Source: Salinisphaera orenii subsp. orenii MK-B5
Lineage (GTDB): Bacteria; Pseudomonadota; Gammaproteobacteria; Nevskiales; Salinisphaeraceae
Direction of reading: 5' to 3'
NCBI RefSeq assembly: GCF_003788635.1
Contig: NZ_AYKH01000040.1
Span: forward strand, 120,464 to 184,463
DNA: 64,000 bases
Both the position numbers and the translations under genes were made by a program. Numbering within the stretch: position 1 is the first letter of the stretch; each line of letters opens with the position of its first letter. Positions 2,697 through 46,990 of the stretch are shown piece after piece. Below the pieces are notes generated by a model. That model saw nothing but the letters and a program-made list of their open reading frames with translations. It searched no databases and was not told the DNA's origin.

Positions 2697-3434
2697 ATGG
2701 GCGATATTCACTGGGCGCGCGAGGCCGGCGTGGCGATCATCACGGTCGACTCGCCGGAGGTCAAGAACGGTCTGACCCCGGAGATGGGGCGCCGCCTCGC
2801 CGCGGTCTGCGACGAGATAGACGCCGACGAGACGATCGGTGCCGCGGTGGTGCGCGGCGCCGAGGGCACGTTCTGCTCGGGCGCGGACCGTCGCCGCTGG
2901 AATCCGGGCGCCGACCAGGCCGAGGATTCGACCTACCGCGAGTTCAGCGCGATCTACAACGCCTTCCGGCGGGTCGGCTCGCTGGCGGTGCCGACCATCG
3001 CCGCCGTTCGCGGGGCGGCGGTCGGCGCCGGCATCAACCTGATGCTGGCCACCGACCTGCGCGTGGTCGCGACCGACGCGCGCATCCTGGCGGGCTTTCT
3101 GCGCATCGGGATCCATCCGGGCGGCGGCTTCTTCACCATCGCCGGGCGGACCGCCGGGCGCGAGGCGACCTCGGCCATGGGCCTGTTCAGCGAAGAGCTG
3201 GACGGCGCCGCTGCCGAGCGCACCGGCATGGCCTGGAAGGCACTGCCGGACGCCGAGGTTGAGGACTTCGCGCTCGAGCTGGCGCGGCGTCCTGCCGCCG
3301 ATCCGTCCCTGGCACGCGAGGCCGTGCGCTCGTTCCGCACGGAGCTGGGCGCCTCCGGCATGGACTGGGATGCGGCCGTGCATTTCGAGCGCGCCACCCA
3401 GATGTGGTCGCAGCGCCGGCGAAGTGAGGCCTGA
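2697..3434 (+). CDS. Crotonase-superfamily protein (enoyl-CoA hydratase/isomerase-like)
   Basis: 245 residues, the usual crotonase length. Oxyanion-hole segments are visible as FCSGADRR (59-66) and RGAAVGAG (105-112). When aligned by eye to rat mitochondrial hydratase, neither catalytic glutamate is present. The Glu144 position falls on about Phe134 in GFLRIGIHPGGG, and the Glu164 region (about 155-165) has no acid at the right place. It is therefore probably not a classical hydratase; an isomerase, a hydrolase or another crotonase reaction is possible. CAGGAG at 2685-2690 supports this ATG. It is 12 bases downstream of the synthetase and likely in the same operon. Confidence 0.82.
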   Translation: MGDIHWAREAGVAIITVDSPEVKNGLTPEMGRRLAAVCDEIDADETIGAAVVRGAEGTFCSGADRRRWNPGADQAEDSTYREFSAIYNAFRRVGSLAVPTIAAVRGAAVGAGINLMLATDLRVVATDARILAGFLRIGIHPGGGFFTIAGRTAGREATSAMGLFSEELDGAAAERTGMAWKALPDAEVEDFALELARRPAADPSLAREAVRSFRTELGASGMDWDAAVHFERATQMWSQRRRSEA

Positions 3435-13085: not shown

Positions 13086-14429
13086 ATGCACGTTCATATC
13101 CTCGGTATCGGCGGTACCTTCATGGCCGGCGTGGCGCTGCTGGCGCGCGCGGCCGGGCATCGCGTGACCGGCTCCGACGCCGGCCTGTATCCGCCCATGA
13201 GCACTCAGCTGGCCGACGCCGGCATCGACGTCATGGACGGCTATGCCGCGGCCCATCTCGACCCTGCGCCCGACCAGGTCGTGATCGGCAATGCCATGAC
13301 GCGCGGCAATCCGGCGGTCGAACACACCCTCGACGCCGGCCTGGCGTACACCTCGGGCCCGCAGTGGCTGGCCGAGAACATCCTTCGCGGGCGCTGGGTG
13401 CTGGCCGTCGCCGGCACCCACGGCAAGACCACGACCGCGAGCATGCTCGCCCACATTCTGCAGCACGCGGGGCTGGCGCCCGGTTTCCTCATCGGCGGCA
13501 TCGCCCCGGACCTGGGCCGCTCGGCGGCCATGGGGTCGAGCGATTTCTTCGTGGTCGAGGCGGACGAGTACGACACCGCTTTCTTCGACAAGCGGGCCAA
13601 GTTCGTCCATTACCGCCCGCGGACGCTGGTGCTGAACAATCTGGAATTCGACCACGCCGACATCTTCGACGATCTCGAGGCCATCAAGCGGCAGTTCCAT
13701 CATCTGGTCCGCACCGTGCCTGCAGGCGGCCAGATCGTGCACAACGCCTCCGAGCCCGCGCTCGACGACGTGCTCGCCCGCGGCTGCTGGACACCGACCG
13801 TCGCCTTCAATGGGGCCGTCGGCTGGCAGGCCGAGGCGATGACCGCGGCCGGCGATAGGCTCCGGATCCGTCTCGACGGGGCCGACGTCGGTGAACTGTC
13901 CTGGTCGCTCGGTGGGGCCCACAACCGCGACAACGCGCTCGCGGCGCTCGCGGCAGCGCGCCATGTGGGCGTCGCCCCCGAGGTCGGCATCGAGGCGCTG
14001 TCCGCTTTCAGCGGCGTGCGGCGGCGGCTCGAGCTGCGAGGCACGCCCGGCGGCATCGCCGTCTACGACGATTTCGCGCATCACCCGACCGCCATTCGCA
14101 CGACGCTGGACGGCCTGCGCGCCGGTGCGCGGGACGGCCGCATTCTCGTGGTCTTCGAACCGCGATCGAACACCATGCGCCGCGGCGTCCACGCCGACAC
14201 GCTCGCCGCGAGCTTCGAGCGTGCGGACGCCGTCTACGTCTATGCCGCGAATATCGACTGGGATGCCGATGCCGTGTTCGCCGGCCTCGGGGACCGGGTG
14301 ACGCTGGCCGACGATATCGACCATCTGGTCGCCGCGGTCGTCGCCGCCGCGGCCCCGGGCGATACTGTCGTCGTGATGAGCAACGGGGGCTTCGGCGGCA
14401 TTCACGAGCGTCTTCTCGACGCGCTCTGA
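13086..14429 (+). CDS. mpl: UDP-N-acetylmuramate:L-alanyl-gamma-D-glutamyl-meso-diaminopimelate ligase
   Basis: 447 residues, the Mpl length. It has the three-domain Mur ligase fold: an N-terminal MHVHILGIGGTFMAG Rossmann segment, the ATP P-loop GTHGKTTTASM (about 112-122), EADEYDTAFFDKR, and a C-terminal DDFAHHPTAI typical of MurC/Mpl. It attaches recycled tripeptide to UDP-MurNAc, saving three ligase steps. It is distinct from murC at 58339. The start follows the membrane-protein stop closely. A strong terminator follows. Confidence 0.94.
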   Translation: MHVHILGIGGTFMAGVALLARAAGHRVTGSDAGLYPPMSTQLADAGIDVMDGYAAAHLDPAPDQVVIGNAMTRGNPAVEHTLDAGLAYTSGPQWLAENILRGRWVLAVAGTHGKTTTASMLAHILQHAGLAPGFLIGGIAPDLGRSAAMGSSDFFVVEADEYDTAFFDKRAKFVHYRPRTLVLNNLEFDHADIFDDLEAIKRQFHHLVRTVPAGGQIVHNASEPALDDVLARGCWTPTVAFNGAVGWQAEAMTAAGDRLRIRLDGADVGELSWSLGGAHNRDNALAALAAARHVGVAPEVGIEALSAFSGVRRRLELRGTPGGIAVYDDFAHHPTAIRTTLDGLRAGARDGRILVVFEPRSNTMRRGVHADTLAASFERADAVYVYAANIDWDADAVFAGLGDRVTLADDIDHLVAAVVAAAAPGDTVVVMSNGGFGGIHERLLDAL

Positions 14430-14468
14430 GCGCGCTCCGCCCCGGCGTCGCCAAAACGGCGCCAAAAA

Positions 14469-14492
14469 AAAAGACCGCCGAAGCGGTCTTTT
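14469..14492 (+). terminator. Intrinsic terminator of mpl
   Basis: AAAAGACCGC and GCGGTCTTTT pair around a CGAA tetraloop, preceded by more A. It starts 39 bases after the mpl stop. It also forms the left border of the three-unit repeat. Confidence 0.88.
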
Positions 14493-14580
14493 GAATTTCG
14501 CCCGGCCGGACCGGACCACGCCGAGGCACGAGGGGGGACCGGGAGACGCCGGCCCGACCGAGCGAAAACGATGGCAGCCG
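14491..14580. repeat. Palindromic repeat unit 1 of 3
   Basis: Begins TTGAATTTCG and ends AGCGAAAACG-ATGGCAGCC. The outer arms are imperfectly complementary (TTCGCCCGGCCGGACCGG with the reverse complement of GCCGGCCCGACCGAGCGAA). The inner 40 bases, from CCACGCCGAGGCACG at 14516, are almost identical in all three units. An A/T-flanked hairpin at about 14565-14592 joins it to unit 2. Confidence 0.9.
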
Positions 14581-14590
14581 GGCTGCCGTT

Positions 14591-14682
14591 TTGAATTTCG
14601 CTTTGACCGGGCCGGCCCACGCCGAGGCACGAGGGGGGGACCGGGGAGATGCCGGCCCGGCAAAGCGAAAACCGATGGCCTC
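14591..14682. repeat. Palindromic repeat unit 2 of 3
   Basis: Same layout as unit 1, with the core at 14617, 101 bases after the first. The arms are the best matched of the three: CGCTTTG(A)CCGGGCCGGC faces GCCGGCCCGGCAAAGCG, a 17-bp stem with one bulged A. Its right border lacks a clear hairpin. Confidence 0.9.
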
Positions 14683-14695
14683 GTGTCCGCCGCCT

Positions 14696-14786
14696 TTGAA
14701 TTCGCTGCGACCGAGCCGACCCACGCCGAGGCACGAGGGGGGACCGGGGAGACGTCGGCCCGGCCGAGCGAAAAAGGCTGGCAGCC
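14696..14786. repeat. Palindromic repeat unit 3 of 3
   Basis: The core starts at 14721, 104 bases after unit 2. The arms have drifted (TTCGCTGCGACCGAGCCGAC against GTCGGCCCGGCCGAGCGAA) but still pair in part. Its right end merges with the terminator of the EF-hand gene. Confidence 0.88.
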
Positions 14787-14794
14787 ACGCTGCC
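14771..14794 (-). terminator. Intrinsic terminator of the EF-hand gene
   Basis: On the minus strand, GGCAGC and GCTGCC pair around GTG, then AGCC and five T follow. It lies six bases after the EF-hand stop codon, so that transcript is probably monocistronic. Confidence 0.85.
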
Positions 14795-14800
14795 GAACTC

Positions 14801-15088
14801 CTACATACTGTCGTCCTGTTCGTTGTCCTGTTGCTCTTGCATCGACGCCATGTACTGCTTGAACTCTTCGCGCGTCACCTTGCCGTCGTCGTTCGCATCC
14901 ATGTCGTCGAACTTCGCCTCCCAGGGCGTGCTCGCGACTTCCTCCGGCGACAACGCGCCGTCGGCGTCGGCATCCATGGTCGCCCAGGAGGCCGAAGCGT
15001 CTGTGCCGGTGCCGCTGGCTACGAGAGAGGTCGTTGCCAGCGGGATCGCGACGGCGATCCCGGCGATTACGGCGTAGCGTTTCTTCAT
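14801..15088 (-). CDS. Small exported EF-hand calcium-binding protein
   Basis: 95 residues. The N terminus (MKKRYAVIAG, hydrophobic to about 25) is a Sec signal or anchor. Two 12-residue EF-hand loops follow: D39-x-D41-x-D43-G-x-x-S47-x-x-E50 and D64-x-N66-x-D68-G-x-x-T72-x-x-E75, both with all usual ligands. The acidic tail ends in QDNEQDDSM. It probably binds Ca2+ in the periplasm or at the membrane; no enzymatic domain is present. It lies directly downstream of the glrK-qseG-glrR operon but has its own sigma-54 promoter and terminator. The ATG at 15088 was chosen because it creates the signal peptide and leaves about 29 bases of leader. Confidence 0.87.
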   Translation of the reverse strand: MKKRYAVIAGIAVAIPLATTSLVASGTGTDASASWATMDADADGALSPEEVASTPWEAKFDDMDANDDGKVTREEFKQYMASMQEQQDNEQDDSM

Positions 15089-15127
15089 GACCCGACCGTG
15101 TTTCCGATCACTTGTTGATGCTGATAG

Positions 15128-15143
15128 AGCAACCCCCGTGCCA
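15128..15143 (-). promoter_or_regulatory. Sigma-54 (-24/-12) promoter of the EF-hand gene
   Basis: Minus-strand TGGCACG-GGGG-TTGCT matches the sigma-54 consensus TGGCACG-N4-TTGCW at every fixed base, with exactly ten bases between the -24 GG and the -12 GC. The predicted start of transcription is near 15117, 29 bases before the ATG. Such promoters need an AAA+ activator bound upstream, and one (glrR) is the adjacent gene. Confidence 0.92.
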
Positions 15144-15238
15144 ATCCGAATAATATCTTTAAAAACAATGTCCTGCGACGTTTCTCTGGAGCAGGAAGGC
15201 GCCAGCACGCGCTGTGGTCTCCCGCAGCGGCACAAACC

Positions 15239-15256
15239 TGTTGCCGTATGGCGACA
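15239..15256. promoter_or_regulatory. Promoter-proximal GlrR-type activator site
   Basis: TGTT-N10-GACA with a palindromic middle (TTGCCGTATGGCGA). It differs by one base from TGTC-N10-GACA, the site known for GlrR in enterobacteria. The centre is about 130 bases upstream of the predicted start, a normal distance for a sigma-54 activator. Confidence 0.75.
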
Positions 15257-15302
15257 GTCAATCGCGTCGTCGCTCAAGAAATTGAAATAAAAGAAAAAAT
15301 TA

Positions 15303-15320
15303 TGTCGCCGTATGGCGACG
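15303..15320. promoter_or_regulatory. Promoter-distal GlrR-type activator site
   Basis: TGTC-N10-GACG, a perfect GTCGCC/GGCGAC palindrome around GTAT. The ten middle bases are the same as in the proximal site, 64 bases away, or about six helical turns. The DNA between the sites is A+T-rich (15278-15302), and a second A+T-rich patch lies at 15146-15170, suitable for bending by a protein such as IHF. Confidence 0.75.
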
Positions 15321-15372
15321 GCTGGGGCGGAATGCCGATTCCCGCGTGTCGTCGCAGGGCAACAGGCCACGG

Positions 15373-16730
<1,358 letters not shown>

Positions 16731-16731
<1 letters not shown>

Positions 16732-17282
16732 CAGGGCGGACTGGAGCCCAGCCGTTCCTCGATGGTCGCCATCTCGCGCAGCTTGCGTTGGGCCTCGTCG
16801 AGCTCGGCCTCGAGTTCGGCGATGCGCGCCCGGGCGTCCTCGCTGTCGTCGTCGCTCGGACTCTGCTCGGTGAGCCGGGTGTAGAAGCGTCGGTAATCCC
16901 GAAGGTACTGTCGTGCCGCAGCGTTCCAGCGCGCATCGTCGGCCTCCAGCGCGCGGCCGGCGTAGCGTGCGGCCAGATCCGGCGTGTAGCGCGTCTGTTT
17001 CGGCGCGCCGTAGGCCAGAGCCAGCCGGGCGAGGTTCCGGGCGTCGGGTGCGTCGTCGACCGCGGACCGGGCCTGCTCGACCGCCTTGGCGCGCGCTTCG
17101 GGGCTGCCCGACTGCAGCTCGTGCGCGTACAGCAGCAGGTCGATCGCGGGATCCGCGGCCTGCTCGGTCTCGTGCGCGACGTCCTCGGTCTCTGCGGACG
17201 GTCGGTGCGCGCAGCCGGCGACCAGCAGCGCGCCGAGCATCGCCGCCACGCAGAGCGTGTGCGTCCGACGTTCAGAGTGCAT
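16731..17282 (-). CDS. qseG: QseG-like lipoprotein between kinase and regulator
   Basis: 183 residues. A lipoprotein signal peptide ends in LLVAGC, lipidated Cys24. The middle is helical and repeat-like (SAVDDAPDARNLARLALAYG, then AARYAGRALEADDARW). The C terminus is a long coiled coil (about 140-178). In E. coli the equivalent gene lies between glrK and glrR and encodes an outer-membrane lipoprotein that activates the kinase. The same position here supports the name, although sequence identity is likely low. The start overlaps the end of the kinase gene by 11 bases, and the stop overlaps the regulator start. Confidence 0.8.
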
Positions 17283-18762
17283 GACGATCGGGGATGTGCA
17301 GGCAAAACATGGCGCCTCCCTCGCGGGCGTCTTCGACATAGATTTCGCCGCCGTGGGCCTGAACGCATTCGCGCACCACCGACAGGCCGATGCCGGTGCC
17401 GCGCAGGCCGCTGTCGGCATCGGCGCCGCGCGCGCCCTGAAAGAAGGCGTCGAAGACGGCGTCGCGCTCGTTCGCGGGCACGCCCGGGCCGGCGTCGCTC
17501 ACGCAGATGCGGGTGCCGGCGTCGAGCCGCTCCACGTGAACGCCGATGGTGCCGCCCGCGGGCGAGAACTTCACCGCGTTGGCGATCAGGTTGTCCATGA
17601 TCAGATGCATACGGTCCCGGTCCGCCGTGATCTCGGTGACCTGTGCCGGGATCGCGACATCGAGCTGTTTCCCCTCGATCGTGAGCCGTTGACGGGCCAC
17701 GATCGCCTCGGTGAGCGCGCGCAGATCGAAGCGCTCGTATTCCAGTTTAGCGTGTTGTTGCTGCCAGGCGGCGAAGTCGAGCAGGTTCTCGATCAGGCTG
17801 GCCAGTTCGAGACTGTTGCGCTGCAGGATGTCGGCGACCTCCGCCTGCGGCGTGCTCAATGGGCCGACCGTGCCGTCGCGCAACAGTTCCGCGCCCTCGC
17901 GAATACTGGCCAGCGGCGTCTTGAGTTCGTGCGACATGTGCCGGATGAACTGCTGTTTCTCGTTTTCGAGGGTGGCCAGGCGTCGCCGCATCCAGTCCAG
18001 CCGGGCGCCGAGGGTGTCCAGTTCGGCGGCCGGGGCGACCACTCGGATGCGCTCGGAGAAATCGCCGTCGCCGAGCCGGGAGACGCCGGCGGCGATCTGC
18101 TGCAGCGGCCGGGCGATCACGATCACGAAGAAGCCGGTGAGCAGCAGCGCCCCGGGGATCAGTGCGAAGACGCAGAGCAGCAGGAACAGCCGGGCATCGG
18201 CGGCGGTCGCCTGGAGGCGCGACAGCTCGCGGTCGACGAACAGATTGCCCTGCTCGGCGATCAGATCGATTTCGCGCTGCATGGCGGCGAGGCGCTCCGC
18301 GATGCCGCGCGACTGTTCCGGGTGCTCGGCGAGCTCGCGCGAGAGCATGCGCGACTCGCGCCGCAGCGCATCGAGATTCCAGTCCGGCAGCGTGTCGAGC
18401 TCGAGCGCGGCCAGCGAATCCAGTATTCGGTCGAACTCGTCCGACTGACGCGAGAAGCGGCCGACCAGATCGGGGCTTTCGAGCACGCTGAACTGGCGCG
18501 CACTGCGCTCCATGGCGGTCAGCAGCGTGCTCAGGCGCTGGCTGTAGCGGGTCATCTCCACGCCCTGCAGGACCAGCCGTTCGCTCTGGTTGTTCAGGCG
18601 GTCGACGTAGACCACGCTGAAGACGATGGCGACGATCAGCGGCAGCGCGACCAGTCCGAAACTGGTCAGCAGCAGCCCGGTGATCGAGCGCGGGCGAAAG
18701 AACAGACGGCGGCGCCGCGTCGTGTCCGGGGGCTGGGGGTCGGCGGCATCGGAGCGGGACAT
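17272..18762 (-). CDS. glrK: Sensor histidine kinase, GlrK/QseE type
   Basis: 496 residues. There are two membrane helices (about 27-52 and 192-216) around a periplasmic helical domain of about 140 residues. A HAMP segment follows (about 217-265). The H-box HMSHELKTPLAS has phospho-acceptor His278; then come the N-box NLIANAVKFSP, DAGPGV and GTGIGLSVV. It phosphorylates GlrR in response to an envelope signal not yet fixed in the family. It is first in a three-gene operon with overlapping ends. The ATG at 18762 gives a family-like N terminus; the open frame upstream to 19758 runs antisense to pmbA. Confidence 0.91.
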   Translation of the reverse strand: MSRSDAADPQPPDTTRRRRLFFRPRSITGLLLTSFGLVALPLIVAIVFSVVYVDRLNNQSERLVLQGVEMTRYSQRLSTLLTAMERSARQFSVLESPDLVGRFSRQSDEFDRILDSLAALELDTLPDWNLDALRRESRMLSRELAEHPEQSRGIAERLAAMQREIDLIAEQGNLFVDRELSRLQATAADARLFLLLCVFALIPGALLLTGFFVIVIARPLQQIAAGVSRLGDGDFSERIRVVAPAAELDTLGARLDWMRRRLATLENEKQQFIRHMSHELKTPLASIREGAELLRDGTVGPLSTPQAEVADILQRNSLELASLIENLLDFAAWQQQHAKLEYERFDLRALTEAIVARQRLTIEGKQLDVAIPAQVTEITADRDRMHLIMDNLIANAVKFSPAGGTIGVHVERLDAGTRICVSDAGPGVPANERDAVFDAFFQGARGADADSGLRGTGIGLSVVRECVQAHGGEIYVEDAREGGAMFCLHIPDRHAL

Positions 18763-18855
18763 CGCGCCCAGCATACCGTGGCTGCATTGCGCGGCCATGC
18801 GCTGCGGGGCTAGGGTTCGCGCCATGCCACATCGATCGAGCGCGTGGGCGCGACC

Positions 18856-22001: not shown

Positions 22002-23369
22002 CTAGTCGAGCAGGAACAGCGTGCCCAGGCCGAGGAAGGCGGAGAAGCCGATGACATCGGTGATGGTGGTCAGGACCACGGAGCCGGCAAGCGCCGGGTC
22101 GATGTTCATCTTCTTCATCGCGAGCGGGATGCCGACCCCGGCCACGGCCGCGCCGATCTGATTGATGACCAGCGCGACGGCGATGATCAGGCCGAGCACG
22201 GCGTTGCCGAACCAGACTTCGGCGATCACGCCCACCACCGCGCCCCAGAGCAGGCCGTTGATCACGGCCACGGCCAGTTCCTTGACGAGCAGGGTGCGGG
22301 CGTTGGAAAAACCGATCTGGCCCAGCGACAGGCCGCGGATCATCAGGGTCAGCGTCTGCGAGCCGCCGATGCCGCCCATGCTGGCAACGATCGGCATCAG
22401 CACGGCGAGCGCGACCACCTGCGAGAGCGTGGCCTCGAACAGGCCGACCACCTGGGCGGCCAGAAACGCCGTGAACAGGTTGGCGCCGAGCCAGACCGCG
22501 CGCCGGCGGGCGCTGCGTGCGATCGGCGCGAACACGTCCTCCTCTTCGTCGAGACCGGCCATGGTCATGATGCTGTGCTCGGCCTCGTCGCGGATGACGT
22601 CGACCACGTCATCGATGGTGATGCGCCCGACCAGACGGCCGTCCGGGTCGACCACCGGCGCCGAGATCAGGTCGAGATCCTGGAAGCGCTTGGCGACCTG
22701 AGCGGCGGGCATGTCCACGGTCAGGGCCTCGAGGTCGGTGTCCATGACCTCCGAGACGTCGCGTTCCGGGTCGAGCGTGACCAGCTTGGCCAGCGTCAGC
22801 ATGCCCAGATAGCGCCCGTAGCGGGAGACGACGAACAGCGTGTTGGTGTCCTCGGGCAGCGTGCCGCGCTGGCGCAGATAGCGGCCGACCACATCGAGCG
22901 TCACGTCCGGACGCACGGTGATGGTGTCGTTGTTCATCAGACCGCCGGCGGAATCCGACGGGTAGGACATGACCGCTTCCAGGCGCTCGCGGTTCTGGAC
23001 GTCCATCGAGCGCAGGACTTCCCGGGTGACCTGATCCGGCAGGTCCTCGATGAAGTCCGCCAGATCGTCGATCGGCATGCCTTCGGTGGCCGCGAGCAGG
23101 ACGCTGTGGTCCATGGCCTCGATCAGCTCCGAGCGCACCTCGTCGTTGACGTGCAGCAGCGTCTCGCCGTGATCCTCCTCGGGCACGAGGCTCCAGACGA
23201 CTTCGCGCTTGGCGCGCGGCACCGACTCCAGCAGCAGCGCGATCTCGGCCGGATGCAGCGCGTGCAGCATGGGCTTGAGGCGGCGCATGCGGCCGGATTC
23301 GAGCGCTTCGTCGAGATAGGCCAGCCGGGCCTCCATCTCGTTCTCTTCGGATGTGGCGGGCTCGCTCAT
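22002..23369 (-). CDS. mgtE: Magnesium transporter MgtE
   Basis: 455 residues. The N-terminal superhelical domain (about 15-130) precedes two CBS domains (about 140-260), which in the family sense Mg2+. Five membrane helices follow from about 290, with MPIVASMGGIGGSQTL and the pore-lining NIDPALAGSVVLTTITDV. It is an inner-membrane Mg2+ channel that closes when cytoplasmic Mg2+ is high. It lies downstream of the PTS genes on the same strand, with a 111-base gap containing a small A/T palindrome (23412-23425). No M-box or other Mg2+ riboswitch was recognised in that gap. Confidence 0.95.
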   Translation of the reverse strand: MSEPATSEENEMEARLAYLDEALESGRMRRLKPMLHALHPAEIALLLESVPRAKREVVWSLVPEEDHGETLLHVNDEVRSELIEAMDHSVLLAATEGMPIDDLADFIEDLPDQVTREVLRSMDVQNRERLEAVMSYPSDSAGGLMNNDTITVRPDVTLDVVGRYLRQRGTLPEDTNTLFVVSRYGRYLGMLTLAKLVTLDPERDVSEVMDTDLEALTVDMPAAQVAKRFQDLDLISAPVVDPDGRLVGRITIDDVVDVIRDEAEHSIMTMAGLDEEEDVFAPIARSARRRAVWLGANLFTAFLAAQVVGLFEATLSQVVALAVLMPIVASMGGIGGSQTLTLMIRGLSLGQIGFSNARTLLVKELAVAVINGLLWGAVVGVIAEVWFGNAVLGLIIAVALVINQIGAAVAGVGIPLAMKKMNIDPALAGSVVLTTITDVIGFSAFLGLGTLFLLD

Positions 23370-23480
23370 CGCGCGCTCCGGAAGACGGGCGGATGTCTAG
23401 AAAATAGCAGAAAAATCCGGATTTTCCCGGAGTTCGAGGGTCGCCGAGGCCCGCCCGCCGGATACGTCGCCGCTATCGGG

Positions 23481-25220
<1,740 letters not shown>

Positions 25221-25263
25221 CGCCGGTCCGGGCGGCTGCGAGCCTGTCCGGGGCGGGGCATGC

Positions 25264-25533
25264 TCACTGCCCCTCGCCGAAACGGTCGCGCACGAGTTCC
25301 TCGAGCGCGTCGAGCGCGGCCTCGGCGTCCTCGCCCTCGGCGCTCACCTCGATCCGCGAGCCGCGGGCGGCGGCCAGCATCATCACGCCCATGATCGACT
25401 TGCCCGAGACCTCGCGGCCGTCCTTGGAGACCTTGATGTCGGCCTCGTACTGCGAGGCGACGGTCACGAACTTGCTGGCGGCGCGGGCGTGCAGGCCGAG
25501 CTTGTTGACGATGGCGAATTCGCGCGTGGGCAT
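25264..25533 (-). CDS. ptsH: Phosphocarrier protein HPr
   Basis: 89 residues. The active His15 lies in GLHARAASKF and the regulatory Ser46 in GKSIMGVMML, both at their canonical numbers. His15 accepts phosphate from EI and passes it to EIIA proteins. Ser46 is the target of HPr kinase, which is also encoded here (26903-27946). Both inputs are thus present. The C terminus is a typical HPr helix. It is separated by 43 bases from the EI gene downstream. Confidence 0.94.
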   Translation of the reverse strand: MPTREFAIVNKLGLHARAASKFVTVASQYEADIKVSKDGREVSGKSIMGVMMLAAARGSRIEVSAEGEDAEAALDALEELVRDRFGEGQ

Positions 25534-25566
25534 AAGCGGTTGGGTCGGTTCGTTGTTGTCGGTCGA

Positions 25567-25968
25567 TTACGGGCTGGGGTCGGGCTGGGGACAGGGCATG
25601 ACGCCGGCGCGGCCGGCCTCGATGGCCGATGCCGCGAGATCGTCCAGCGCCAGCTGCGGGTAATTGTAGACCCGCACGAGCATGGACAGATTGATGCCGG
25701 CGACGACCCGGGTGCGGTCCGGGGCGGCGGCGCGGGTGGCGATGTTGCTCGGCGTCGATCCGAAGGCGTCGGTGATGATGAGCACGCCGTCGCCGTCGTC
25801 CAGCCGGGCGAGCGCGTCCGCGGCGGCCTGGCTGCGCTCGTCCGGGTCGTCGTGGCGGTGCACTTCCAGCACCTCCGTCGGCCGCGACAGGTCGCCGATC
25901 ATGCCGGTCACCGTCTCCACGAAATGGGCCCCCAGGCGGCCGTGGGTGATCAGCAGTACCCCGATCAT
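25567..25968 (-). CDS. PTS EIIA of the mannose family (regulatory)
   Basis: 133 residues. MIGVLLITHGRLG places the phosphorylated histidine at His9, as in EIIA-Man. TDAFGSTPSNIA and GINLSMLVRV complete the family pattern. No EIIB, IIC or IID subunits are present, so the protein probably acts as a phosphorylation-dependent regulator receiving phosphate from HPr. It sits between rapZ and ptsH on the same strand, as in many proteobacteria with an HprK-type PTS. Confidence 0.92.
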   Translation of the reverse strand: MIGVLLITHGRLGAHFVETVTGMIGDLSRPTEVLEVHRHDDPDERSQAAADALARLDDGDGVLIITDAFGSTPSNIATRAAAPDRTRVVAGINLSMLVRVYNYPQLALDDLAASAIEAGRAGVMPCPQPDPSP

Positions 25969-26013
25969 GCGATGGCCCGGCCGGCCCCGATCATGCGCGC
26001 GCTCGCGCGCCGG

Positions 26014-26871
26014 TCAATGCAGTTCATTGTGTCGCACCAGCGTCTGGGCATAGGTCTGTCGCAGGCGCCGGGCCAGCTGCTCGATCAGATAGACCGAACG
26101 ATGCTTGCCACCCGTGCAGCCGACGGCAATCGTGACATAAGCGCGATTCTCGCGCGCGAATTCCGGCAGCCAGCGCACCAGAAAACCGTGGATGTCGTCG
26201 AGCATGTCGTGGGTCGCCGGCTCGGCCGCCAGATGCTCGGCCACGGCCGCATCCAGCCCGGTGAGCTCGCGCAGTTCCGGAACCCAGTGCGGATTGGGCA
26301 GGCAGCGGGCGTCGAACACGAAGTCCACCGCCTGGGGCAGGCCGTACTTGAAGCCGAAGGACTGGAGCAGGATCGACAGCTCGCCGGTCCGGGTGGCGTC
26401 CACGCGATTGCGGACGATGTCCCGCAGCTGATGGATGTTGGTGTTGCTGGTGTCGATGGCGACATCGGCCTTGCCGGCGATGGGCTCCATCAGGCGCCGG
26501 TCCGCGGTGACCGCGTCGATCAGCGAGGTGTCGGCGTCGGTCAGCGGGTGCTTGCGCCGGGTCTCTGAAAACCGCCGCAGGATGGTCTCGTTGTCGGCGT
26601 GGAGATAGATCACCTCGACGTCGATGCCGCCCGCCCGGAGTTCCTCGATCCGCTTGGGGAAGGCGTCGATCTCGCCGCGCCGGGCCCGGGCGTCGATGCC
26701 CACGGCCAGGCGGTCGAAGTCCAGCCCCTGGCGCTGCAGGGTGGCCACCGAGACCTCGCCGAGCAGGCCCAGCGGCAGGTTGTCGATGCAGTAGTAGCCC
26801 AGGTCCTCGAGCATGTGGAGCGCGACGGACTTGCCGGCGCCGGCCAGGCCGCTCACCACGATCAGACGCAC
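26014..26871 (-). CDS. rapZ: RNase adapter / nucleotide-binding protein RapZ
   Basis: 285 residues. Walker A GLAGAGKS is at 8-15, followed by DLGYYCIDNLP. The C-terminal RNA-binding half carries GCTGGKHRSVYL. In E. coli RapZ binds the small RNAs GlmY and GlmZ and guides RNase E, adjusting glucosamine-6-phosphate synthase. GlrKR controls GlmY in E. coli, and this window also encodes GlrKR. It lies 31 bases downstream of hprK. Confidence 0.95.
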   Translation of the reverse strand: MRLIVVSGLAGAGKSVALHMLEDLGYYCIDNLPLGLLGEVSVATLQRQGLDFDRLAVGIDARARRGEIDAFPKRIEELRAGGIDVEVIYLHADNETILRRFSETRRKHPLTDADTSLIDAVTADRRLMEPIAGKADVAIDTSNTNIHQLRDIVRNRVDATRTGELSILLQSFGFKYGLPQAVDFVFDARCLPNPHWVPELRELTGLDAAVAEHLAAEPATHDMLDDIHGFLVRWLPEFARENRAYVTIAVGCTGGKHRSVYLIEQLARRLRQTYAQTLVRHNELH

Positions 26872-26902
26872 GCGCGCTCTCCTCGTTCGGCTGTGGTTGC
26901 GC

Positions 26903-27946
26903 TCATTCTAGCCCGTCTTCCGGCGGGGTCGCACGCGAGCCGGATACCGCCGGATCGTCGGTCTCCGGTTCCACGCTCATGGCCGCGCGCTGGCGGTCGG
27001 CGAACTGCCGGTCGCTCTGATGACCCTGCATGCGCAGCAGGTGATCGCGGCAGGCGGCTTCCACGAGCACCGACAGATTGTGGCCGACCGCCACGGGCAG
27101 CGTGATCTCGGGGATGTCGACGTCGAGTATGCGCCGGGTGGCGCGGGTGCCGGCCAGTCGGTCGGCGGCGGCCAGATGCGACGACTCCGGCCGCACCAGC
27201 CGGATGATGAGCCCGAGCTGCTTGCGGCGCTTGATCGCGGCCTCGCCGAACATCGCGCGGATGTTGAGCAGGCCGAGACCGCGGACTTCGAGAAAATCCT
27301 GCAGCAGGGCGGGGCAGCCGCCGTTGAGATCGTCCGGGCCCAGCAGGGCGAACTCCGGGGCGTCGTCGGCGACCAGCCGATGGCCGCGATTGACCAGTTC
27401 CAGCGCCAGCTCGCTCTTGCCCACACCGGAATCGCCGGTCAGCAGCAGGCCGATCGACAGGACCTCCAGGAACACGCCGTGCAGCGTGACCTGGCGGGCC
27501 AGCGCCTCGCCGAGGAAGTGCCGGATCCGGTAGGCCGCCTTGTGGCCGCTCTCGCGGCTCTCGAATACTGCGATCCCGGCCCCGTAGAGGGCCTCGCGCA
27601 GCGGCGCGGCCAGGGTCTGATCGTCGGCGACCACCACCAGCCGGGTCGCGCCCGTGGTCAGGCGTTCGAGCACATGGGCGTGCTGATCCGGCTCGATGGT
27701 ATCGAGATAGGCGATCTCCGGCTCGCCGATGACCTGGACCTGCGGCGGATGGATGAAATTGAGATAGCCGACGATCGGTACGCGCCGGCCGTCGATGCGG
27801 GTGGCGCCCACGGTGGCGTGACCGCCGATCGTCGGGCGGGGCCAGTGCAGACCGAGCGAGGTCCGAAGCTCGGCGAAGACCGTCTCGACTGCGACGCGAC
27901 GCGTCTCGAGGGTCTGGTCGAACTCGTCCTCGCCGGTCAGCGGCAC
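26903..27946 (-). CDS. hprK: HPr kinase/phosphorylase
   Basis: 347 residues from a GTG at 27946, 13 bases after the ptsN stop. The N-terminal MurF-like domain covers about 1-140. The kinase core has P-loop GDSGVGKS at 171-178, the ADDAPEF region and the family signature VRGLGLLNIRAMFG (about 221-234). The tail is longer than usual. It phosphorylates and dephosphorylates HPr at Ser46. No ATG fits the frame near the expected N terminus; the open frame upstream to 28192 is antisense-like sequence overlapping ptsN, so the GTG is preferred. Confidence 0.92.
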   Translation of the reverse strand: MPLTGEDEFDQTLETRRVAVETVFAELRTSLGLHWPRPTIGGHATVGATRIDGRRVPIVGYLNFIHPPQVQVIGEPEIAYLDTIEPDQHAHVLERLTTGATRLVVVADDQTLAAPLREALYGAGIAVFESRESGHKAAYRIRHFLGEALARQVTLHGVFLEVLSIGLLLTGDSGVGKSELALELVNRGHRLVADDAPEFALLGPDDLNGGCPALLQDFLEVRGLGLLNIRAMFGEAAIKRRKQLGLIIRLVRPESSHLAAADRLAGTRATRRILDVDIPEITLPVAVGHNLSVLVEAACRDHLLRMQGHQSDRQFADRQRAAMSVEPETDDPAVSGSRATPPEDGLE

Positions 27947-27959
27947 GGTGTCCGGCCGG

Positions 27960-28424
27960 CTACTGGGTGACCGGATCGTGGGCCAGCAGGACGCGATGCA
28001 GGGTGGCGTCGTCGCCGGCGTCGCGCAGTTCGGCCAGCGCCTGATTCTCGGAGAACATCTCCGCCAGGCGTCGGAGCATGTTGAGGTGCGCCTCGGTGGA
28101 CTGCTCCGGAACCAGCAGGCCGAACACGAGATCGACCGGCTGCTCGTCGTTGGACTCGAAATCCACCGGCTGCGGCAGACGCATGAAGGCACCGACGCAG
28201 TCGTCGGTGCCCTTCATGCGGGCGTGGGGAATGGCAACGCCGTCGCCGATGCCGGTGCTGCCGAGCTTCTCGCGTGCGACCAGGCCGTTGAAGATTTCGC
28301 TGGCGGTCAGATAGGGCGTGCCCTGGGTGAGAATCTCGGCCAGTTGCTCGAGCGCGCGCTTCTTGCTCTGGACATCCTCGGCAAGACGGACCCGCTCGGG
28401 GGCAACGATATCGGCAATATTCAT
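27960..28424 (-). CDS. ptsN: PTS EIIA-Ntr regulatory protein
   Basis: 154 residues, the EIIA-Ntr length. The phospho-acceptor is His67 in VAIPHARM, followed by VDLVFGLLVPE. In proteobacteria it links the PTS phosphorylation state to potassium transport and to nitrogen and envelope control. The position after hpf and rpoN is the conserved one. It is separated from hpf by 30 bases. Confidence 0.95.
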   Translation of the reverse strand: MNIADIVAPERVRLAEDVQSKKRALEQLAEILTQGTPYLTASEIFNGLVAREKLGSTGIGDGVAIPHARMKGTDDCVGAFMRLPQPVDFESNDEQPVDLVFGLLVPEQSTEAHLNMLRRLAEMFSENQALAELRDAGDDATLHRVLLAHDPVTQ

Positions 28425-28454
28425 GACGTTCCTTTCAACGATTGCGAAAAGCGG

Positions 28455-28781
28455 TCAACCGGCATCCAGATTGATGTGGCGGGCCTGCCGGTTGTGATGA
28501 TCCTTCGCCTTCTCCTTGTGCCGCCGCGTCTGCCGGTCGAGCTTGTCGATCATGCAGTCGATCGCGGCGTACATGTCGTCCTGCGTGGACTCGGCGTGCA
28601 CCGTGGCGCCGCGCAGCTGCATGGTCGCCTCGGCCTTGTGACGTACCTTCTCGACCTCGAGCACCACCTCGGCGTCGATGACATGGTCGAAATGACGCTC
28701 GATACGGCCCATCTTGGATGCGACATAGTCGTGCAAGGCATCGGTCATGTCGATGTGATGGCCGGAGATGTTCAGGTTCAT
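28455..28781 (-). CDS. hpf: Ribosome hibernation promoting factor (short HPF)
   Basis: 108 residues. The MNLNISGHHIDMTDALHDYV opening and the VEKVRHKAEATMQL strand are typical of the HPF/YfiA fold. The basic C-terminal stretch (RRHKEKAKDHHNRQ) suits rRNA binding. The short form helps pair ribosomes into 100S dimers in stationary phase. It lies 30 bases downstream of rpoN, its usual partner. Confidence 0.95.
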   Translation of the reverse strand: MNLNISGHHIDMTDALHDYVASKMGRIERHFDHVIDAEVVLEVEKVRHKAEATMQLRGATVHAESTQDDMYAAIDCMIDKLDRQTRRHKEKAKDHHNRQARHINLDAG

Positions 28782-28811
28782 CGCGTACTCCTTCTCTGCT
28801 TGGGAAGAGCG

Positions 28812-30272
28812 TTAGCTGGCCTGACGCCGCCGCTCGTGCGACGGCGGTATCGATAGCGCCTCGCGGTACTTGGCGACGGTGCGCCGCGCCACGCGAATGC
28901 CGTTGTCGAGCAGCAGCTCCGCGAGCTTGCTGTCGGACAGCGGTTTGCCATCGGGTTCGGATGCGACCATGCGCTTGATCATCGCCTGGATGGCGGTCGC
29001 CGAGGCGGAGCCGCCATCGGTGGTCGAGACATGGCTGGAAAAGAAATACTTGAGTTCGAAGATGCCGCGCGGCGTCTGCATGTACTTGTTGGCCGTCGCC
29101 CGCGATACGGTGGATTCGTGTATTTCGAGCTGTTCGGCCACGTCGCGCAACACCAGCGGTTTCATTGCCTCCTCGCCATACTCCAGAAAAGCGCGCTGGG
29201 CTTCAACAATGCATTGCGCGACCTGGAGCAGGGTGTCGTTGCGGCTCTTGAGGCTGTTGAGGAAGAAGCGGGCTTCCTGCAGGTGCGACTTGAGCGTGGT
29301 CTGGTCGGCGGATTTGTCCGCGCGCTTGATCAGGGCCAGATATTGGCTGTTGATGCGAAGCTTCGGCGCGATCTCGGCGTTGAGCGAGACCTGCCAGCGC
29401 GACGACTGGCGCGTGACGAACACCTCCGGCACCACATAGCCGGCCTCCTGATCGCCGAAAGCCTCGCCCGGGTGCGGTTGCAGCGTCTGCACCAGGGCGA
29501 TGGCGCCGTCGAGCGCCTCGGGCTCGACATCCAGCCGCTGCGCCAGGCCGGCGCGGTCGCGCGACGCCAGGCATTCCAGCGATTCGTTCTCGACGATGGC
29601 CAGCGCCAGATCGCGGTGGGCGGTGTCCGCCGGCAGCTGGCGCAGCTGGATGGCCAGACACTCGCCGAGGCTGCGCGCGGCCACGCCCGGTGGGTCGAAG
29701 GCCTGCACCACCGCCAGCACCGATTCGATGCGGGCGGCGTCGGTCTCGTACTCGTCGGTCAGGCGTTCGAGCAGCTCCGGCCAGTCCTCGAGCAGGCCGT
29801 TGTGGTTCACCGCGTCGATCAGCTGTGCGGCGATCGAGCGCTCGCCGGCGCTGAACGAGTGCATGTCCGCCTGCCAGGTCAGATGGGTGTGCAGGTCGGG
29901 GGTGCTGGTCAGATTGGCCTGGCGGTAGTCCCAGTAGTCGTCGTCCTCGCTGCTCGGCGCGGCCGGCGCCGGGCTGCTGCTGCCGGCGTAGATGTCGTTC
30001 CAGTCGGCATCGACCGGCAGATTCTCGGGGATCTCGGCGTCGCTCCCGGCGCTGTCCTTGGTCTGGCGTTCGCCGGCGCTGTCATCCGTCGTCTGGCCGG
30101 CGTCGACCTCGCCGTGGCCGTCGTCGGCCTCGAGCATGACGTTGGTCTCGAGCGCCTCCTGGATCTCGGTCTTCAGATCCAGCGTGGACAGCTGCAGCAT
30201 GCGGATGGCCTGCTGCAGCGCAGGCGTCATCGTCAGGCTTTGCGATAGGTTGAGGTTCAGCGACTGCTTCAT
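28812..30272 (-). CDS. rpoN: RNA polymerase sigma-54 factor
   Basis: 486 residues. Region I is glutamine- and leucine-rich ([23 protein letters not shown]) and receives the activator. An acidic, variable region II spans about 55-110. The core-binding domain follows. The C terminus has the HTH ([17 protein letters not shown]) and the RpoN box [12 protein letters not shown], which reads the -24 element. It serves the sigma-54 promoter found at 15128-15143 and is activated there by GlrR-type proteins. The ATG overlaps the lptB stop by four bases. Confidence 0.97.
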
Positions 30273-31033
30273 AGTCGGAAATCCTCGCCGAGGTAGACCT
30301 CCCGTACCTTGCGATCGGCCAGTACCGCCTCGCCGGTGCCTTCGGCGATGACGGCGCCGTCGCTGAGAATGTAGGCGCGTTCGCAGATGCCCAGCGTCTC
30401 GCGCACGTTGTGATCGGTGATGAGCACGCCGATGCCGCGGTTCTTCAGATGCGTGATGATGCCGCGGATGTCGCCGATCGAGATCGGATCGATGCCGGCG
30501 AAGGGCTCGTCCAGCAGCATGAAGCGCGGTTCCGCGGCCAGCGCCCGGGCGATCTCGACCCGCCGGCGCTCGCCGCCGGACAGGTTGAGCCCCGTGGAGT
30601 CGGCGATGTGCGTGATCGAAAGCTCGTCGAGCAGCGCGGCCAGTTCGCGTTCGATGCCCGCGCGATCGAGATCGGAACGCACCTGCAGGATCGCGCGGAT
30701 GTTGTCGGCCACGCTGAGCTTGCGGAACACCGAGGCTTCCTGCGGCAGATAGCCGATGCCGCGCTTGGCGCGCTTGTGCATGGGCACGCCCACCAGGCTC
30801 TGTTCGCCGAGGCTGATGCGGCCGGCGTCCGGCGAGACCAGGCCGACGATCATGTAGAAGGCGGTGGTTTTGCCGGCGCCGTTGGGCCCGAGCAGGCCGA
30901 CGACCTCGCCCTGGCCGAGATCGAGACTGACGTCGCGCACCACCTCGCGGCCGCGATAGCGCTTGCTCAGGTGCGTGGCCACCAGGCGGTCGGCGGCCGC
31001 CGCGTGGCCGATGTCCATCGCCGCGCTGCTCAT
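30269..31033 (-). CDS. lptB: LPS export ABC transporter ATPase LptB
   Basis: 254 residues. Walker A GPNGAGKT, the Q-loop region YLPQEASVF (characteristic of LptB), signature [15 protein letters not shown], Walker [13 protein letters not shown] and the switch histidine in [10 protein letters not shown] are all present. It powers extraction of LPS from the inner membrane with LptFG (not in the window). Four-base overlaps join it to lptA and rpoN. Confidence 0.97.

Positions 31034-46631: not shown

Positions 46632-46990
<359 letters not shown>

Follow-up and report, generated by a model that had tools for sequence, protein, structure and literature searches.

In the literature considered here, GlrR is known through the enterobacterial GlmY and rpoE. 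The locus described here, in Salinisphaera orenii subsp. orenii MK-B5, raises the question of which product is driven by the GlrR-type promoter that follows glrR. A sequence-only reading had inferred that GlrKR controls a periplasmic Ca2+-binding product, encoded by a small EF-hand gene with its own terminator. We analyzed a window of 64,000 nucleotides (contig NZ_AYKH01000040.1), which is part of the 3.67-Mb draft genome of this strain, and compared the locus with those of other genomes. Positions refer to this window.

The promoter layout matches that of E. coli glmY

The features of the locus follow one another on the minus strand in the order histidine kinase gene, QseG-like lipoprotein gene, glrR, three GlrR-type sites, a sigma-54 box, the EF-hand reading frame, three hairpins, and a terminator-like stem with nine T residues. 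At the far border of the hairpin array lies a convergent gene with Pfam Mur ligase domains (13086 to 14429, plus strand), which we read as mpl. The product of glrR (15373 to 16731, minus strand) is a sigma-54-dependent response regulator with Pfam receiver and Sigma54_activat domains. Its best match was NCBIfam PRK15115 (GlrR; E = 2.6e-176), which ranked first of 118 families, 157 bits ahead of the next, with a score of 586.8 bits that is under the cut-off of 763 bits. As membership of the GlrR family would lead one to expect, glrR shares an operon with a glrK-like histidine kinase gene (17272 to 18813, minus strand; Pfam HAMP, HisKA, and HATPase) and with the lipoprotein gene between the two (16731 to 17420, minus strand). 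The lipoprotein was assigned by its position and by a weak NCBIfam QseG match (E = 1.4e-4), and it had no Pfam match. The GlrR of the window is 97% identical to that of genome G012. Elsewhere in the window, lptB, rpoN, hpf, hprK, and rapZ, then ptsI and mgtE, are all located on the minus strand at 22002 to 31033. The RNase P class A RNA at 46633 to 46986 was the sole Rfam match at gathering level in the window.

The sigma-54 box TGGCACGGGGGTTGCT (15128 to 15143, minus strand), which the sequence-only reading had reported, fits the consensus exactly; the window contains no other exact match. When up to two mismatches were allowed, seven matches were found against 9.8 expected, which is no more than chance. 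Genome-wide, the exact pattern TGGCACN5TTGC occurs at 16 sites and the reversed-pattern control at two. Of these 16 boxes, only the one at this locus is preceded by three GlrR-type sites in the 400 bp before it; another three boxes have one site each.

Two TGTC-N10-GACA sites had been reported, and both were found by the site scan and in relatives: UAS2 at −177 (15303 to 15320) and UAS3 at −113 (15239 to 15256), on the minus strand. Each has one mismatch, 16 of their 18 positions agree, and the ten central bases are identical. A third site, UAS1 at −221 (TGTTGCCCTGCGACGACA; 15347 to 15364, minus strand), which has the same position in relatives, had been overlooked together with the whole hairpin array; the coordinates given for the other elements were correct. 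The scan also detected an IHF-like site (8 of 9 bases) at −144 (15275 to 15287, minus strand). By count, sites of the TGTC-N10-GACA type show no clear excess: the window contains 28, whereas 19.9 would be expected, and 6 of 100 shuffles reached that number. The sites of this promoter stand above chance because of their fixed position and conservation, including the third site and the same positions in relatives, and not because of their number.

We compared 14 loci of the genus, of which 13 adjoin glrR on one contig and the remaining one, L050, is on contig C180 of genome G007. One of the 14 genomes, G011, carries a Lysobacterales label in its record. Palindromes with at least 5 of 6 core bases and at least 9 of 14 palindrome bases were accepted as UAS-like. 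The sigma-54 box was at the same place in every locus, in the form TGGCAC-R-N4-TTGCT (TGGCACA in two). UAS-like sites were located at −216 to −223, −175 to −180, and −110 to −113. Ten loci have the full set, and four have the first two. In raw counts, sites matching IHF in 8 or more of 9 bases were located at about −32 in nine loci and at about −144 in five.

A similar scan of the region upstream of E. coli K-12 glmY placed UAS at −203, −170, and −107. It also gave IHF-like sites at −150, the counterpart of the site at −144 in the window, and at −31. This agrees with the published glmY promoter, for which passages of PMC6075780 describe three UAS (TGTN12ACA) plus IHF. GlmY, the target of GlrR/QseF, IHF, and sigma-54 in Enterobacteriaceae, thus shares with the Salinisphaera locus a sigma-54 box, three UAS, and IHF-like sites at nearly equal distances, and both loci adjoin glrK-qseG-glrR. 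They differ in that the Salinisphaera locus is downstream of glrR, whereas E. coli glmY is upstream of glrK. The elements of a glmY-type promoter, namely sigma-54 box, three GlrR sites, and IHF, were found in the genus at the level of sequence, with two instead of three sites in the four loci mentioned and with IHF-like sites in some loci only. Judged in this way, the promoter of the GlrR/sigma-54 type is real, and better than it had been described. Control of the downstream RNA by GlrR and sigma-54 is highly probable from this layout.

The EF-hand frame is absent from five of 14 loci

The EF-hand open reading frame (14801 to 15088, minus strand) encodes 95 amino acids with two DxDxDG motifs. 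The protein is likely exported and scored 38.4 bits against PF13202, over the cut-off of 25.9. The gene was found in nine genus loci. The sigma-54 box and GlrR-type sites are present in all nine, as they are in the 14 loci overall, and the ATG is located 53 to 61 nt behind the start of the box in each. The observation that would have spoken against the proposed circuit, relatives with the gene but lacking the sites, was thus not made in the genus. The dN/dS ratio was 0.03 to 0.17 in six computable pairs of seven, values that are partly saturated because dS was 0.8 to 3.8 in five of the six. These sequence comparisons indicate that the gene is genuine and under purifying selection where present; hence, the frame is not filler.

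In the other five loci, which are spread over the GlrR tree, the frame is absent and the promoter, the sites, the hairpins, and the T-run end remain. A remnant of the frame was detected in L018 (tblastn, E = 5.5e-6) and a faint one in L017 (short matches, E of about 0.05), and none in L021 to L023. A search of these five genomes for a copy elsewhere gave no close match; the best E value was 2e-4, and G002 had no match. In the GlrR tree, all seven loci of one clade possess the frame, as do two of the seven in the other; the support of the two basal clades is 84/77 and 95/94. An ancestral frame would require three losses, and three gains would cost equal steps. We prefer losses because of the remnant in L018 and the identical position of the frame.

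If the EF-hand protein were the selected output of GlrR, the hairpins might be a 3′UTR that stabilizes or processes its mRNA. The constant distance of the ATG and the low dN/dS in six pairs agree with this explanation. However, five loci without the gene keep the promoter, sites, hairpins, and T-run end, and their genomes have only weak EF-hand matches elsewhere (E of 2e-4 or worse) or none. A role in the 3′UTR would also leave the near-invariant loop of the hairpins, described below, unexplained. We therefore consider this explanation improbable. As the promoter is kept in loci that lack the gene, the EF-hand gene does not explain the conservation of the promoter. The proposed circuit is thus supported in its promoter and sites, kept in 14 of 14 loci, but not in its supposed purpose of making a periplasmic calcium-binding protein. 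In our reading, the EF-hand protein is an optional co-product. In our judgment, the sequence-only reading had named the lesser of the two products of this promoter.

The terminator assigned to the EF-hand gene was not confirmed. The hairpin at 14794 to 14780 is followed by only five T residues, and these T residues are part of the next element, in its 5′ arm. We set this hairpin aside; a stronger terminator-like site (14492 to 14469, plus nine T) is located about 300 bp further, behind three hairpins. In the open-access literature, we found no report linking an EF-hand protein with QseF; the passages of PMC3162934 that cover the QseF-like family and the glmY promoter do not mention an EF-hand.

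Covarying hairpins with C-rich loops on the promoter strand

An array of two to five hairpins of about 75 nt each, located on the promoter strand before a terminator-like end, was found in all 14 genus loci, including those without the EF-hand frame. In the window, all on the minus strand, module 1 (14698 to 14773), module 2 (14594 to 14670), and module 3 (14494 to 14567) scored 81.5, 86.3, and 86.9 bits with our model R1. The array ends in a stem plus nine T resembling an intrinsic terminator (14464 to 14492, minus strand). The modules share a near-invariant C-rich loop, GGUCCCCCCUCGUGCCUCGG. The genus genomes contain 38 modules, two to five each; five copies in L050 and four in L015 reflect near-identical repeats of the last module type. 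A comparable arrangement is known from the CcsR family of Rhodobacter, in which a small frame is followed by repeated hairpins with C/U-rich loops. The Salinisphaera array shares with CcsR the tandem small RNAs behind a small ORF and differs from it in promoter and in host, Rhodobacter belonging to the Alphaproteobacteria.

Alignment A1 contains 35 of the 38 modules (L050_1, L050_4, and L050_5 are left out); the covariation test used all 38 plus one module of the outgroup genome G015. Ten of the 15 stem pairs changed on both sides, and 94.7% of the cells were paired. The covariation score was 0.455; shuffles gave 0.262, with none of 500 reaching the observed value, and slid versions did not exceed 0.185. 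As the modules are related to each other, the shuffle control overstates the significance. In two weaker measures, 7 and 23 of 500 shuffles were as high, the latter for the pair-type measure. The three modules of the window folded better than 198 to 200 of 200 shuffles (z of −2.9 to −4.9, with −4.93 for module 2).

The strand was assigned by two kinds of evidence. Within the genus, model R1 scored 60.7 to 97.6 bits on the promoter strand and at most 23.9 bits on the opposite one, and our tally of 525 cells on the promoter strand gave 72 G-U against 7 A-C. We therefore rejected the opposite strand as the functional one. In G015, the gap was narrower (42.4 against 28.5 bits on the opposite strand), and conservation of the loop does not extend to its 3′ half. 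In all 14 predicted transcripts, the loop core was the more open part, with a mean unpaired value of 0.49 to 0.82 per loop against 0.31 to 0.37 elsewhere in the transcript; the whole loop of 20 nt was about half open (0.37 to 0.60).

A search of the 14 genus genomes at E of 0.01 or lower, with the stricter filters of Infernal, gave no further module match, indicating one locus per genome. Several named Salinisphaera strains have the array, which is also found on a contig of Salinisphaera halophila YIM 95161. In the order, 16 of 85 genomes matched: the 14 of the genus, G015, and G449. G015, of another genus of the family, has one module in the qseG-mpl gap (E = 6e-8). We took the match in G449 (E = 3.5e-4) as chance; it falls within a same-strand ORF of 165 aa, which by eye reads as NlpC/P60-type. 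In a sample of the class, the loop pattern was present in 3 of 369 genomes; these three belong to the genus and include our own genome. Loop-pattern matches outside the genus (L043, L048, L049, and L051; 4 of 14) were dropped, as three were partial with 17 to 21 bits and one had no model match. Viral contigs gave 0 matches.

Mobile or REP-type repeats that have no function as RNA would also be tandem and palindromic and could vary from two to five copies. Such a repeat is very improbable here, since the hairpins occupy a single locus in each of 14 genomes, covary with G-U pairs on one strand, and are preceded by the same promoter in all 14 loci; a REP/MITE-type element was rejected on the single locus and the covariation.

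At the array, Rfam 15 gave nothing at gathering level, and the best weak match was Atu_C8 (24.9 bits against 50). Neither GlmY, GlmZ, nor sX13 was among the 13 Rfam matches up to E = 5 in 14440 to 15140. The family was found neither in Rfam 15 nor in the open-access literature, including that on C-rich arrays and on Salinisphaera small RNAs. Since all 14 genomes keep the hairpins, even those without the protein gene, the RNA is likely the main product. That the array, rather than the EF-hand frame, is the conserved product of the locus is very likely, and the promoter is probably retained for the sake of the array. With a structured RNA as its common product, the locus again agrees with the known type of GlrR target, a small RNA, although the RNA itself has no GlmY match. 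It differs from GlmY in consisting of tandem C-rich hairpins that may be accompanied by an ORF. Passages of PMC6075780 describe the GlrR-dependent rpoE promoter of E. coli as a second sigma-54/GlrR output in cell-envelope control. That promoter differs in driving a protein-coding sigma-factor gene.

Candidate function and GlrR promoters beyond the genus

We infer the following model. GlrK would sense cell-envelope stress, and phosphorylated GlrR, with IHF, would then activate sigma-54 transcription. The predicted single transcript contains the EF-hand reading frame and then the three covarying hairpins. The array would be a multivalent small RNA, and its loops, with the core UCCCCCCUCGU, may pair with G-rich stretches near the translation starts of several mRNAs, as in sX13. 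Where present, the EF-hand protein would be a co-expressed, exported Ca2+-binding product; the transcript would therefore be both an mRNA and a regulatory RNA.

The model draws on sX13 of Xanthomonas. According to passages of PMC3771888, sX13 has three C-rich loops, one with UCCCCCU, and represses mRNAs that have G-rich motifs near the start; HPnc5490 and RNAIII are named beside it as C-rich-loop RNAs. The array has in common with sX13 several stable stems and apical C-rich loops with a UCCCCCU-type core, and the predictions and covariation described above point to stable stems with accessible loops. Differences are that sX13 has 115 nt and adjoins polA, whereas the array is located between glrR and mpl, and that sX13 does not share the long invariant loop. 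The targets of sX13 are known, and the same passages of PMC3771888 do not mention control by GlrR. We read the array from its sequence as a new family of GlrR/sigma-54 small RNAs, with a GlmY-like promoter and an unrelated RNA, that is likely an sX13-like C-rich-loop regulator. Whether it acts through pairing of the C-rich loop we judge, from these analyses, to be about evenly balanced.

We searched for pairing targets. In our own genome outside the array, no site matched the complement of the loop (17 nt) within two mismatches; at three mismatches, ten other matches were found, not above the control (15). The 9-mer ACGAGGGGG occurs shortly before an ATG at 19 non-array sites in 11 genomes against two for the reversed control. 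This excess has limited meaning, since every Shine-Dalgarno-like motif should be enriched there, and a single pair of these sites is homologous. The glmS gene is present in all 11 genomes searched, and its leaders showed no complementarity beyond shuffles. As none of the 11 leaders was in the best 5% of 200 shuffles, we rejected glmS as a pairing target; the leader in L164 was shifted by about 35 nt, its contig starting early. Across the genomes searched, none of these three approaches gave a conserved target.

The loop might instead bind a protein or another RNA, and not mRNAs, either as a sponge or as a ligand for a chaperone (ProQ or Hfq, for example). Its constancy over about 20 nt exceeds a usual seed, and tandem copies suit a sponge. 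The lack of a close loop complement outside the array in our own genome, however, argues against a sponge, and overall we hold this explanation to be rather unlikely. A sponge for CsrA was excluded by its motif, because the loop has no GGA on the promoter strand.

As the promoter is glmY-like, the array could also be a functional GlmY, its two to five loops titrating the RNase adapter RapZ and thereby steering GlmS. In agreement with this, rapZ is present in 11 of 11 genomes searched, in 10 of them on the glrR contig; in the window, it is located at 26014 to 26871, near rpoN. Against it, neither GlmY nor GlmZ appeared among the Rfam matches at the locus, and GlmZ was over the cut-off in 0 of the 11 genomes. 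A GlmZ-like RNA elsewhere in the genus was rejected on that count, with one weak match in G013 (15.2 bits against 60). Moreover, the RNA-binding domain of RapZ is reported, in a passage of PMC7073468, as restricted to Enterobacteriaceae. A RapZ decoy, the principal rival with a named partner, is thus improbable, and a small RNA pairing with mRNAs remains our preferred reading.

To follow the promoter beyond the genus, we considered 23 glrR-like matches, of which 16 had loci that were scanned on both strands and 7 were left out. A box with two UAS was found in 2 of the 16 scanned loci, both in other genera of the order and about 200 bp behind glrR: L024 (−183/−116) and L030 (−178/−112). In L030 (G022, of another family of the order), the box is exact and is followed by an exported-looking mini-ORF of 33 to 37 aa and a BON-domain protein of 202 aa. 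In L024 (G021), the box at 3022 is followed, near the predicted start, by a leader hairpin that has a C-rich loop, and then by a 91-aa ORF without a Pfam match and a Fe/Mn superoxide dismutase gene; model R1 gave no match in this locus. In L121 (contig C50 of G015), glrK-qseG is present, no glrR was seen between these genes and mpl, and one R1 hairpin is located there. Next come a poor sigma-54 box, with its UAS at −174, and another hairpin whose loop is C-rich. The glrR-like gene of G015, 56% identical, is on a separate contig, C12.

As some species, such as S. shabanensis and S. hydrothermalis, have the coding frame and others, such as S. japonica, lack it, and the RNA is constant, the functions of protein and RNA are separable by species, as in a natural experiment, and they are directly testable because several named Salinisphaera strains have the array. 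More tentatively, and with somewhat less than even confidence, the GlrR-IHF-sigma-54 promoter of glmY may be an ancient control socket with swapped cargo: GlmY in enterobacteria, the C-rich-loop array with or without the EF-hand protein in Salinisphaeraceae, and genes for BON-domain protein or Fe/Mn superoxide dismutase in two further families. The envelope response of Salinisphaera GlrR would then run via a new dual-function mRNA/small RNA that replaced or preceded the GlmY-RapZ route. If true, the GlrR promoter architecture would stand outside enterobacteria before an unrelated RNA family, and the regulator would keep its switch and change its RNA.
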